Below, piece after piece: positions 10,908 through 19,376 of a stretch of DNA of 31,468 nucleotides. Source of the stretch: a virus. The notes below the pieces were generated by a model that searched no databases, was not told the origin of the DNA, and saw only the letters and a program-made list of their open reading frames with translations. Both the position numbers and the translations under genes were made by a program. Each line of letters opens with the position of its first letter. Within the stretch, counting starts at the first letter, position 1. The DNA lies in IMG/VR virus record IMGVR_UViG_3300032265_001769, positions 1 to 31,468 of that record; one strand, given 5' to 3'.

Positions 10908-11930
10908 TTACGACGTGGCGTTGAACATGCCAAAGCCGTTAGGATTCTTCACAACCAGACCAGCAATAGCCTGAACAAGGCGAGCAGGGCCGCCACCAGC
11001 GTCAGGCAGTTCCTTGACCTCAGGAAGCTTGGAATAGCGGATTTCAGCCATATCCATGGGAATGACGTAACCCTTGTAAGCCTGAGCCGAAAGAGCACCG
11101 GCGTTGTTGCCACCAATGAACACATCCGGGTGGAGAACAAGGCGGCCAAAGTCACCCTCGAAAATGTCGATGGAAGACTTGTAGGTATCGGACGCCAGTT
11201 CCTTGTTGAACGTGCGAACAGAGGTCGCTGCAATAGTGTTAGTGTTGCCGGTGGTGGTGGTAGCGGACGCACTCAGGTTGGAGAACGCACGCTTAAGGGT
11301 CGTGCCGCAAATCACGTCGTAATCGCGGAACACGCCAGTCGCTCCATAGATGGCAGTCAACACGGCCTGCACAGTGGTCTCAGTCAGAGACGCAGTGGCA
11401 GTGGTATCAACAGCACCGGAAGCGGGAGCAAACGTGCTGGTAGGCTGACCAACAGACGAGCCAGTGGTCGTGAGCCAGTTTCCAAGCGAACCAGTCAGGT
11501 AAGCGTTGGTACCGTTGTCAACCACAGCAGCCTGGTTCGTGCAAAGGAAGGTGGCTTCCATGTCACGCTTGAGCTGGATCAGGTTCTTGCTGATACCGTT
11601 GGCAACTTCATCAGTGACGCCGGCGACATTCTGGGTCTGAGCGATGAAGCCGATGCGGAGGGTACGGCGGAACGCCTGAGCGTAGTTAGAGAACCGCGCA
11701 CGATTGGCAACCGGGTTGGTAGCCGAGGCGACAGTCACGTCGGTGCCGTCAACAACGCCAGTGAGCTGGGGCGCGGCGTAGTTATCAACCTGCCAAGAGA
11801 ACGTCATGTTCCCGAGATCCTTGCCCTTGGGGGCCATGGACACAAACGGTGTAGACTTCTGGTCAACGATTGCGATGTAGTCGGCAAGTTCCTCACGGAT
11901 ACCCACCTGGGAGGGCTGGAGCAGTGGCAT
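10908..11930 (-). CDS. Major capsid protein (DUF5309/SU10-type)
   Basis: The protein has 340 residues. The N-terminus (GIREELADYIAIVDQKSTPF near 9-28), the WQVDNY segment near 46, the DGTDVTVASA segment near 61 and the helix NLIQLKRDMEATFLCTNQAA near 134-153 match the pattern of the DUF5309/SU10-type major capsid family, an HK97-fold protein that builds the icosahedral shell. Length is normal for the family. It follows the scaffold gene by 14 bases and precedes a strong terminator, the usual arrangement for the most abundant virion protein. The leader is A/T-rich with no Shine-Dalgarno sequence. Confidence 0.9.
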   Translation of the reverse strand: MPLLQPSQVGIREELADYIAIVDQKSTPFVSMAPKGKDLGNMTFSWQVDNYAAPQLTGVVDGTDVTVASATNPVANRARFSNYAQAFRRTLRIGFIAQTQNVAGVTDEVANGISKNLIQLKRDMEATFLCTNQAAVVDNGTNAYLTGSLGNWLTTTGSSVGQPTSTFAPASGAVDTTATASLTETTVQAVLTAIYGATGVFRDYDVICGTTLKRAFSNLSASATTTTGNTNTIAATSVRTFNKELASDTYKSSIDIFEGDFGRLVLHPDVFIGGNNAGALSAQAYKGYVIPMDMAEIRYSKLPEVKELPDAGGGPARLVQAIAGLVVKNPNGFGMFNATS

Positions 11931-15449: not shown

Positions 15450-17237
15450 TTAATAAGTACCGCCGCCAATGGTATCAAAGCCACCAGCTCCGATATGCTC
15501 CAGCTTGGACGCCAACAACATGCCAAGACAATCAATGGCATCCTTTGTCGCACCCTTTTGGCCATCCTTTCCGGTATGCTCAGAAAGGCAATAAATTAGG
15601 TTGTGGCAGTCCTTAGAAATATACAGCTTAGGCTCGTTCAACATGCTCACAGGCTTCGTTGAGTCATAGCTTAATTCTGAATTAATCGTCGCTGTCCTCT
15701 GGTCTACTGGAACTCCAGGCGCAGGCACAAACGCCATTCCTTCATCTTCATCCGTTGAAATAGCCAACAGATCAATCAACGTCGTCCCTCCCTCTGCACT
15801 AATCGTAGGACTTCCACCTGCCCGGGGATCAATCAGCCGCATGATCGGTTCACAACGCCCAATCTCAGTCTCAATCTGTCGGAACAGCTCCCGATACTCA
15901 GAAATCGAACGCCCTGCACTCAATGTCTGCGCTGGACCAGGTTTGCCATCCGCTTTTTCACTCGGCAAAGCCCACTCTCCATACCCCGCAAAATCAGGAA
16001 ATTCCCTGACCACAACCTTCTTCCCATCCTCGTACACCACCATCCACAAACAATACCAGTTACGCGCACCAGCCGGGTCACACACCATGTAAAGTGTTCC
16101 ACCATCAGCCATCTTGCTCACGTCCACACAGTGAGTCTCAGGCCGAAATCTCGCAAACGCCTTTCCCACATTGTCCGTCGCCCAGCCATACGCCCGAGTC
16201 AAAACCTGCCCCATCGGAGCACCCACCAACTTCGACTTCATCTCGTCCCAAGGATTGTACGGATTGTCCTCTGAAAAAAAGAACACCGTCTTCCTGCCCA
16301 ATTCCTTGCGCTCCATAACCCTCGGAGCTTTTCCAGTCGGCCACCCAACCACCCCTGACTTGCCTTCCAACAACTGCCCTGGCGCCCACTCCAATACAGC
16401 CGCGCCAGCTACAAATTCCTTGTATATCGACGCCACTCCTTCCAATGGAGTCTGAGTCACCAAAAACTTGCCTCTTCGTGTAACCAAACGGTACCTCAAC
16501 GTGTCCACCCAGCTCTGAGGTACCAACTCGTCACACCAAATCAAGTCAGCTTCACGCCCTTCAATCGTGTTTTCACTCTGCGTGTAATTGAGAAAGTCAC
16601 ACCGTGAACCATTCGGCAAAATGAACGACCCGTCCGTAAACCCGTTCTTCCGAGAATAGTTCAGGTAGTGAATCTTGCCCTTCTTCGTCGCCCTCAACGC
16701 CACAGGCAAGTAGTTGTAAATCGCTGGCTGCTGCACAGTTACGCTAGTCGCATTGCTCGTATGGCAGCACAACACGTTCTTGTTCTCACCACTTAAGAGC
16801 GTCTCAACAACCTTCCTGGCCGCATATAACGTCTTGCCCGCACGATTTCCACCAGACACCAACATCTCAGACGTGTCCGGCAAATACTTGTTTGCCACCT
16901 CCCAGTGATCCGGGATGTACCCAAAACTGTACGGATCTCCCTTCTCCAACAAACACAACCGGATCCGCTTTTCCCTCAAAGCAGCCGCGTTCGGCAACTT
17001 GTGGTCAACCCGAGGTATAACCGGATGCTCAGGCTGATCCGACCACCACTTCAGCTGACACGGAGCACCGCAAAAAACACCACGCTCACGCTGCGCTTCA
17101 AACGACTTGCAACAAGTTGGACAAACCCTTGAATACAAGTCATTTATGGAAATTTTTTGGTTTAGGGAACTCATCGCCCCTTGGCCGCCATCCAGCTTGC
17201 CAACCCCCTCCCCCCCTGCCGCAGTGTCTAGTGTCAT
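15450..17237 (-). CDS. terL: Terminase large subunit
   Basis: About 595 residues from the ATG at 17237; a TTG at 17276 and an ATG at 17174 are alternatives. ATPase motifs are clear: Walker A SGGNRAGKT near 128-136, Walker B LIWCDE near 232-237, and coupling motif VTQTPLEG near 260-267. The nuclease half has acidic residues in MVCDPAG (near 387) and RLIDPRAGG (near 470), as expected for the RNase H-like headful or cohesive-end nuclease. Unusually, the N-terminus carries a Cys cluster (C-P-T-C-C near 39-43 and C-G-A-P-C near 56-60) resembling a zinc-binding finger. It packages DNA into the procapsid through the portal. Confidence 0.92.
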   Translation of the reverse strand: MTLDTAAGGEGVGKLDGGQGAMSSLNQKISINDLYSRVCPTCCKSFEAQRERGVFCGAPCQLKWWSDQPEHPVIPRVDHKLPNAAALREKRIRLCLLEKGDPYSFGYIPDHWEVANKYLPDTSEMLVSGGNRAGKTLYAARKVVETLLSGENKNVLCCHTSNATSVTVQQPAIYNYLPVALRATKKGKIHYLNYSRKNGFTDGSFILPNGSRCDFLNYTQSENTIEGREADLIWCDELVPQSWVDTLRYRLVTRRGKFLVTQTPLEGVASIYKEFVAGAAVLEWAPGQLLEGKSGVVGWPTGKAPRVMERKELGRKTVFFFSEDNPYNPWDEMKSKLVGAPMGQVLTRAYGWATDNVGKAFARFRPETHCVDVSKMADGGTLYMVCDPAGARNWYCLWMVVYEDGKKVVVREFPDFAGYGEWALPSEKADGKPGPAQTLSAGRSISEYRELFRQIETEIGRCEPIMRLIDPRAGGSPTISAEGGTTLIDLLAISTDEDEGMAFVPAPGVPVDQRTATINSELSYDSTKPVSMLNEPKLYISKDCHNLIYCLSEHTGKDGQKGATKDAIDCLGMLLASKLEHIGAGGFDTIGGGTY

Positions 17238-17285
17238 AGTGTCATAGGACAGTTGGCCGCGATTGAATATAACCAATGTTGTGCG

Positions 17286-17894
17286 TCACGCTTCCGAGCC
17301 GTCCGCGTCCACAACCTGGGCCTGCTTTGCGCCTTTCAGCTCGTCCAGGAACTCCCTGTGATTGATAGTCTGATGAACGTTAACGCTAAAGCTGGTTGGC
17401 TGACCCTTCATGAGAGAAAGTTTATCCGAAGTTATCGCGAGGCTCAATGGAAGTTGATGCGGTGCAATCTCATCTATTGCGCTTGTAGCCAGCCGTTTAG
17501 TGCCTTTCCATAGGGCAATTTCAAAAAAACTAATGACTTGCGTTCGCCACTGCTCTTCTGTTTCCGGGTAATCTAGCGGAACAGATACGCCGTGAATGTA
17601 TTTGAGTGCAGCTTCCCTTTTAATTCCTGCTTGTTCCGCGATCTTTTCTAGCGGCTCGCATAGGAGAACCCCTTCGACAACAGAGTCAGCTTTTTCCTGC
17701 GTTAGAAGAGAATTGTGATGTTGTCCAGCTATGGGCCGTCGATAGCCCATTTCGTTAGCTTTAGCCTGGATCTTTTCGCACTCGTCTTTTGTTAGCCTGG
17801 CGTCGTTAGTGAGTCCCCAAGCCGCCCGGTTCCGATCAATGTCCAGGGCTTTCGCGATTGCATTAATCGACACCGCACGTTTTGGCGCGCCCAT
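17286..17894 (-). CDS. Terminase small subunit-like protein with LacI-type HTH
   Basis: The protein has 202 residues. Residues 8-52 read as a helix-turn-helix of the LacI style (SINAIAKALDIDRNRAAWGL then a helix ending NEMGYRR), including the hinge-like GYRRP. A second helical domain (residues 60-105, with AGIKREAALKYIHG) also looks like a DNA-binding or oligomerisation segment. The C-terminus is polar and Gln/Asp-rich. Position directly upstream of the large terminase (9 bases to a TTG start, 48 to the ATG) makes small terminase the best call: it would recognise the packaging site. A late gene regulator is the alternative. Confidence 0.7.
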   Translation of the reverse strand: MGAPKRAVSINAIAKALDIDRNRAAWGLTNDARLTKDECEKIQAKANEMGYRRPIAGQHHNSLLTQEKADSVVEGVLLCEPLEKIAEQAGIKREAALKYIHGVSVPLDYPETEEQWRTQVISFFEIALWKGTKRLATSAIDEIAPHQLPLSLAITSDKLSLMKGQPTSFSVNVHQTINHREFLDELKGAKQAQVVDADGSEA

Positions 17895-17898
17895 ACGC

Positions 17899-18639
17899 CT
17901 AATTCTTTATCTCCACGCCTGCGAGCTGGAACGGAAAGTCTCCCCAATGTTTCAATGGAGTCCGAGGCTCAAAAGCAAGTTGTTCCGCGCCACAAGCAGC
18001 TAGTCGGTAAGAAGCTGCGTAGTCCTCCGACAGGTATTCCAGTCGATCACGCACTTCCGCAGCAAACGGCATCCAGAGAGTGGGAATCTGTCCGCCCGTG
18101 AGCGTGTCCTCGCACCATTGCACGCCAACCGGCAGGGCAGTCTCTTCTTTACTCAACTCCTCGAGACAGTCTTCCAACAGTCCCCGTGGGATTGCGACGC
18201 AACCGGAAGCAAACAGTGTAATTGGCGTTAGCCTAGGATCATCCTCTAGCGGCTTCGCGCCTACCTTCACGCGCAGGGCAGGTTTTGGCGGAAGTGACCG
18301 ACAACTGTATGGAATGCAAACGACTGCCTGGCGAGCATGAGCTATCCTAGCCAGTTCCAAAATGTCATCCGGCTGAAACTCGATGTCATGATCAATCTGG
18401 ATCCACACGTCCGCGCCCGAGTCTAGGAACCATTTTGTGGCCCGGCATCGCGAGCGTGAGATAAGCGCATCTTCGCGCACAAGCCGCATGTCCCCTTTCC
18501 AGTCCGTGTTTTTCGCCAGCTCCGTCGTTAGCCCTACCCAAGACATCAGCGACAACGGATGCACGTCCCCGTACCCGTACAAGGTAAGGTGAAGCGTTGG
18601 GTTTGACCGCTGAGCTGGCAAGTGTTCCACGTGGAACAA
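17899..18639 (-). CDS. Glycosyltransferase (GT-A type)
   Basis: About 246 residues. Nucleotide-sugar-binding features are visible: LVREDALISRSR near 53-64, the DxD-type motif IDHDIEF near 82-88, and a later GCVAIPRGLLEDCLEEL segment. These indicate a cytoplasmic GT-A glycosyltransferase, used by phages to modify cell surface glycans, virion proteins or DNA; the acceptor is unknown. It is the first gene of the late operon and ends five bases before the small terminase. The start is uncertain: the codon at 18637-18639 is TTG and an in-frame GTG lies at 18628-18630. Both lie in or touching the parS palindrome, so the first residues read FHVEH. Confidence 0.8.
   Translation of the reverse strand: MFHVEHLPAQRSNPTLHLTLYGYGDVHPLSLMSWVGLTTELAKNTDWKGDMRLVREDALISRSRCRATKWFLDSGADVWIQIDHDIEFQPDDILELARIAHARQAVVCIPYSCRSLPPKPALRVKVGAKPLEDDPRLTPITLFASGCVAIPRGLLEDCLEELSKEETALPVGVQWCEDTLTGGQIPTLWMPFAAEVRDRLEYLSEDYAASYRLAACGAEQLAFEPRTPLKHWGDFPFQLAGVEIKN
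18623..18638. other. parS-type centromere site
   Basis: The sequence TGTTCCACGTGGAACA is a perfect 16-bp palindrome identical in form to chromosomal parS sites (consensus TGTTnCACGTGnAACA) that are bound by ParB. A perfect match is extremely unlikely by chance in a 31-kb window. It overlaps the start region of the first late gene, at the edge of the divergent intergenic region. No parA or parB gene is seen here, so host ParB would be the binding protein. A half-site GTGGAACA lies at 18721-18728. Confidence 0.85.
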
Positions 18640-18674
18640 TCACTCGGAACTCTTCCAGAATCGCAAGCAAAAAA

Positions 18675-18697
18675 TGCTAATTCTCCAACTGCTAATT
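18675..18697. repeat. Direct repeat pair, possible operator
   Basis: The 8-base sequence TGCTAATT occurs at 18675-18682 and again at 18690-18697, 15 bases apart, just upstream of the late operon and downstream of the half parS site. Paired direct repeats in a divergent promoter region may be regulator binding sites. There is no known regulator match. Confidence 0.4.
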
Positions 18698-18733
18698 TCA
18701 TCCAGACTAGTGACAACAGGGTGGAACACTAAC

Positions 18734-19108
18734 GTGCACTTCCTTGTGCTCTAGCCCCATTGCCCGCACGCGCAGCAGCCGGTCGCCTCCCCGAAAAGCG
18801 ATCCGGCAGGGCCTTAGCCCGTGCGGGGGGAGATAACATCTCCCGCGAACGCAGTGAGCCTGGGGGGACCCCTGTCCCAAGGAGCGTAGCGACTCGGAAA
18901 CAAGCGTAGTAAGTGGCTGGTTGTAAACACAATCCACCTTTGTTCCCCGGTGGACCCGCAGGGGCTAGATAGTATCTCTCTTTTTTACTGACTCGGCTCG
19001 CTTTGGGGGCGGCCTTTTGTAAAACGAGTTGACTTCCACTGCTTACGCTCTCCGAGCTAACGTGCCGCTAGTCGCAGCACTAGCAGTTCCGCGCTGTGCG
19101 CGGATTTT
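18734..19108 (+). ncRNA. Candidate structured non-coding RNA
   Basis: A GC-rich block unlike its surroundings has many potential helices. An 8-bp stem CCCGCACG/CGTGCGGG (18763-18770 with 18820-18827) encloses a 9-bp bulged stem (GCCGGTCGC with GCGATCCGGC). GGGAGAT/ATCTCCC (18828-18844) follows, then a GGGAC/GTCCC hairpin near 18868 and a bulged GTGG...CCAC helix near 18913-18937. GCTAGT/ACTAGC (19067-19084) precedes the final intrinsic terminator. Short GCGTAG-type motifs repeat (near 18850, 18883, 18903) and one can pair with 19035-19047. No plausible protein frame fits the whole block. The plus orientation is chosen because the terminator T-run is on that strand. No known RNA class is recognised. 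Confidence 0.35.
19088..19108 (+). terminator. Intrinsic terminator in the divergent region
   Basis: A perfect 7-bp G/C-rich stem TCCGCGC/GCGCGGA with a 3-base TGT loop (19088-19104) is followed by TTTT (19105-19108) on the plus strand; the minus strand has no T-run after the stem. No plus-strand protein gene ends here, which implies a non-coding transcript from the 18.7-19.0 kb region. Confidence 0.7.
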
Positions 19109-19376
19109 AAGCCAACGAACTTCAAAAAAGCAAGCCCTTTCTTCCGACAATCTTCAGCCATTCTCGCGTTCATACATCCACACCCAGGAGATTGACTGGA
19201 AGTCCCTCACCAGTTTCCCCCCGCGCACAAACAATCTTTCGCTCGCAACCGGTTCATTCCCAGCAAGTTGCTTGTTGTGTCTCCACTGTTTGATAAAAAA
19301 TGATATACACCCGTTCGCAGGCGTGGCAAATTTTCCCTGTCGAAAGCGAAACACCTAACACAAATCCCATAAACCC
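19109..19376 (+). other. Untranslated leader of the plus-strand operon
   Basis: No convincing gene is seen on either strand. An A/T-rich patch at 19290-19309 (TTGATAAAAAATGATATACA) may hold the promoter of the rightward operon, but no good -35 element can be paired with it. The last 40 bases before the ATG at 19377 are A/C-rich, like the leaders of other rightward genes. Confidence 0.3.

Follow-up and report, generated by a model that had tools for sequence, protein, structure and literature searches.

A 16-bp palindrome in a 31,468-bp linear virus fragment, the whole of which is referred to below as the window, is probably a genuine parS of the chromosomal type and, judged by its sequence, a predicted ParB site. 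The reading favored here, with a probability of about 0.6, is that it serves as a loading site for the ParB of the host, of the kind known from phage phi29, by which phage DNA would be attached or segregated. The placement of parS on a phage in which no ParB gene is found is a trick already known from phi29 and common in viral sequences, including both viral contigs and cultured phages, and the singularity that an earlier note on this DNA attached to the site was overstated.

The site is the sole exact match in the window to the parS consensus TGTTNCACGTGNAACA, and its perfect 16-bp symmetry, reported in the earlier note, was confirmed (Table 1). All 16 positions agree with parS2 and parS3 of Pseudomonas aeruginosa, which share this 16-mer and are bound by ParB with the highest affinity in that species (PMC4368675). 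A first-order Markov model of the window predicts 0.0003 matches to the 14-base parS consensus and 0.00002 occurrences of the exact 16-mer, in agreement with the claim that such a match is unlikely to arise by chance. The second-best parS-like site of the whole window, at 66-81, has two mismatches and was discounted as a second parS; that only a single full site is present counts against the ParB-loading reading. An isolated half-site lies 82 bp from the full palindrome.

Table 1. Coordinates of the parS site and of the surrounding features in the window
Feature	Position	Strand	Remarks
parS palindrome TGTTCCACGTGGAACA	18623-18638		exact match, perfect 16-bp palindrome
Half-parS TGTTCCAC, exact 8 bp, isolated	18721-18728	-	in non-coding region; kept in all four relatives
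Conserved block AGTGATTGTTCCACGTGGAACACTTGCCAGC (- strand sequence), ~31 bp	18614-18644	-	one variable column in four relatives; flanks variable
P0001, 246 aa, first gene of the leftward (terminase-side) operon	17899-18639	-	likely TTG start overlaps parS
Divergent non-coding region, ~740 bp	18640-19376		between leftward and rightward genes; 81-89% DNA identity to three relatives
Terminase large subunit (TerL)	15450-17276	-	query for relatives
SU10-type major capsid protein	10908-11930	-	genomic context

The leftward operon comprises head and packaging genes, among them those for the terminase large subunit and the SU10-type capsid protein, and the rightward block includes a helicase. The palindrome is located inside or at the 5' end of the open reading frame of P0001 and shares two bases with the TTG codon (18637-18639) that opens this frame. 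Since a TGA stands in frame directly upstream of this TTG, in the near relatives as well as here, the TTG is the first possible start; GTG at 18630 or TTG at 18621 may be alternative later starts. The location originally described, within a divergent promoter region and overlapping a start codon, is thus upheld for the likely start codon, whereas the site only borders the divergent region, at one edge, and no promoter was identified beside it. The divergent region itself contains extended stretches without variation as well as small hairpins (18828-18844 and 19088-19104) and could be an origin, a packaging site or a regulatory hub. No Rfam RNA element was matched in the window, this region included, and no tRNA was found in the window.

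The gene between P0001 and TerL (17286-17894) is 98% identical to its counterpart in one near relative, L123, and 58-60% identical to those in two others, L124 and L125, unlike TerL, for which identity is 95-99% in all near relatives; from these sequences, a mosaic exchange of a possible small terminase may have occurred. Stop codons in the tblastn ranges of TerL from four loci (L166, L174, L182 and L184) fall at the N-terminal end, where conservation is poor, and are ascribed to alignments running on upstream of the start; recoding in these genes was rejected. No close relative of TerL was found in GTDB genomes, and the only match of the TerL profile search for a host was a 32% identical TerL on an Opitutae MAG contig, while the relatives of the capsid protein, at ~25% identity, belong to Sulfitobacter and Rhizobium phages. 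These clues to the host disagree.

Searches of the window and of related records (22.7, 31.2, 32.9, 37.5 and 41.7 kb), all of them fragments, returned no match to the ParB_N (PF02195) and ParA (PF13614, AAA_31) families, and the tyrosine integrase family (PF00589) was not found in seven records of the clade, likewise fragments. The statement that the window holds neither parA nor parB therefore stands, and the available fragments present neither a phage-encoded ParABS of the P1-like or mycobacteriophage type nor the integrase of an integrating temperate phage; the lack of an integrase match may leave room for a carrier state. Given a non-random, conserved parS and neither ParB nor ParA found in the fragment, recruitment of the host ParB, as put forward in the earlier note, would be the natural reading.

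Conservation of the site was assessed among 80 related viral loci fetched by TerL, four of which are near relatives with 95-99% TerL identity; in three of the four the contig reaches the parS position. Presence of the palindrome at the same position in close relatives had been set in advance as a test, and the outcome was mainly favorable: the site is intact in L124 and L125 (two of the three), and the version in L123, TGTTCTACGTGGAACA, has one C-to-T change in the CACGTG core. A core change of such a kind lowers the affinity of ParB for P. aeruginosa parS5 (PMC4368675), so that the L123 variant counts against the ParB-loading reading. In the codon alignment of P0001, 66% of third positions vary and pairwise third-position identity outside the parS block is 53-64%, whereas the first nine codons vary at a single third position and at two sites altogether. 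Among the 239 nine-codon windows of the gene, the parS block is the least variable, a rank shared with the overlapping window shifted by one codon, and the site is conserved as DNA. Conservation extends to the bases just outside the palindrome (TGAT and CTTGCCAGC), for which parS by itself does not account; a constraint on translation initiation at the gene start could be part of the conservation. Across the wider TerL clade the P0001 gene is found at ~48-57% identity, the shared domain beginning in most of these relatives at about residue 12-15, past the residues encoded by parS, and no parS within two mismatches was detected near the P0001 homologue. Since these relatives have the same operon and lack the site, parS is a feature of the subclade and is dispensable for this type of phage.

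The wider distribution of parS was surveyed in IMG/VR, in which short and possibly misassigned contigs are included. The consensus TGTTNCACGTGNAACA was matched 145 times in 120 stretches, and 138 of the 145 matches have T or C followed by A or G at the two free positions (TA 82, CG 27, TG 16 and CA 13), with the other 12 combinations accounting for the remaining 7, so that the viral matches are real parS sites rather than chance words. At least 120 IMG/VR stretches contain the exact 16-mer; of the control palindromes, the reversed one occurs in none and the core-swapped one in 54 (complete scan). Sites of parS in the loci fetched fall outside called open reading frames in 42% of cases, compared with ~10% for random positions and 0 of 46 for control palindromes (Fisher p = 4e-10). 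Chance is an unlikely source of parS in viral DNA, and for the site studied here it was ruled out by the expectation under the Markov model, the free-position test and the control palindromes. ParB_N scored above the cut-off in 4 of 96 parS-bearing viral records (2 of 50 and 2 of 46 in two sets), and a terminase or portal family was found in 14 of 35 long parS-bearing records, a lower bound given that two profiles alone were used. Clusters of three to five exact parS sites were observed in L033 (2657-3444, five sites inside 800 bp), L089 (10535-11462), L103 (240-961), L016 and L121, and no ParB_N was found in L016, L033 or L089. We lean, by a modest amount, toward the view that orphan parS is a widespread selected cis-element through which unrelated phages, also apparently non-integrating ones, enlist the ParB of their hosts, phi29 being only the first known case and the phage studied here one among many.

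ParB is a CTP-dependent clamp that recognizes parS, closes and slides onto neighboring DNA. In the mechanism proposed here, the host ParB would recognize the phage parS, close as a CTP clamp and spread along the phage DNA, which would in this manner become attached to the partition and condensation machinery of the host. The outcome might be localization beside the host origins or, under delayed lysis, fair inheritance of unintegrated phage DNA, and the principle would be that of phi29, employed in a host for which sporulation is not known. Should the ParB of the host load onto phage genomes across many lineages, connection of phage DNA to the bacterial segregation and SMC machinery would be routine, and views of carrier states, phage localization and ParB function would change.

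Several other explanations have to be weighed against loading of the host ParB. ParB bound at parS might repress or delay the leftward terminase and capsid operon, by blocking transcription or initiation, so that lytic development would be deferred according to the state of the host ParB. The overlap with the probable start codon of P0001, which heads the operon, and the conserved additional half-site 82 bp away are consistent with such a role, as are the silencing, by ParB excess, of plasmids with one perfect parS (PMC4368675) and the repression, also by ParB excess, of promoters beside parS3 and parS4 of P. aeruginosa (PMC5521831). However, few genes are silenced at native ParB levels in most species (PMC5521831), no promoter was recognized beside the site in the window, and the sites of the phages KoPa-4 and KPP25 are located at or past the 3' end of a gene. 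Intergenic viral parS sites, moreover, fall in divergent, tandem and convergent gaps in 16%, 65% and 19% of cases, compared with 19%, 65% and 16% for random intergenic positions; they have no orientation preference and no excess in divergent, promoter-bearing gaps, which speaks against the late-operon repression suggested in the earlier note and lends no support to the coupling to packaging suggested there. Because viral parS sites are biased away from coding sequence yet indifferent to promoters, which fits loading independent of position, tethering is favored over promoter control. Repression of the operon is accordingly considered unlikely as the main role, and it is possibly either a local side effect of loading or a rival to it.

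The similarity to parS could also be coincidental, the bases being kept as a conserved start region composed of codons, a ribosome-binding site or a palindromic site for a phage regulator. The site does lie in the reading frame beside the start, its flanking bases are conserved as well, and the wider clade lacks both the N-terminal residues and the site. Against this, a perfect 16-bp match has the very low expectation given above, the great majority of viral parS matches are genuine sites, and third codon positions are kept here while synonymous change is common elsewhere in P0001, which makes coincidence improbable. Still less probable is a phage-plasmid whose own ParA and ParB are encoded in a missing part of the genome and for which parS is the cognate centromere: the window, as a 31.5-kb linear fragment, leaves space for such genes, but the related records of 22.7-41.7 kb contain neither family, and a chromosomal parS is atypical for plasmid-type ParBs, which usually bind other sites. 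Least credible of all is a decoy that titrates the host ParB and disturbs host segregation; many replicated phage genomes, each with one site, might together act in this way, although one site per genome makes a weak sponge.

In comparison with known systems, the centromere site on phage DNA is shared with the P1-type and mycobacteriophage extrachromosomal prophages, which encode their own ParA and ParB, unlike this fragment, where neither was found. Closer parallels are offered by cultured phages with exact parS sites and, over the full record, no ParB_N, namely Roseobacter phage DSS3P8 (three sites) and the Pseudomonas phages phiPsa374 (two), vB_PpuM-KoPa-4 (two) and KPP25 (one), which are unrelated to the phage studied here and in which, unlike here, the sites lie in a terminal repeat (phiPsa374) or in other between-gene gaps. 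In phiPsa374 (KJ409772) one site (389-404) falls in the direct terminal repeat annotated at 1-526, and the second (98150-98165) is near the opposite end, so that both genome ends appear to carry parS, and related Pseudomonas phages have matches at these positions too. A short-query BLAST search against cultured phages returned hundreds more records, the perfect site not being present in all of them, and a search of one literature library yielded nothing on orphan phage parS beyond phi29 and no published function for the sites of DSS3P8, phiPsa374, KPP25 and KoPa-4. The parS2 and parS3 sites of P. aeruginosa have the identical 16-mer but lie near oriC on a chromosome that also carries parAB (PMC4368675). 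The nearest counterpart is phi29 (NC_011048), which has four exact parS sites and no ParB_N match and reportedly makes use of Spo0J, the host ParB, in spore entrapment (Meijer et al. 2005, as cited in PMC9437464). Both phages possess chromosomal-type parS, ParB_N was matched neither in the phi29 record nor in the fragments available here, and the host ParB would be the reader here as is reported for phi29. They differ in that phi29, which is unrelated to this SU10-capsid phage, carries four sites of the TGTTTCACGTGGAACA type and infects a sporulating host, whereas the phage described here has a single, perfectly symmetric site at the start of its terminase operon.
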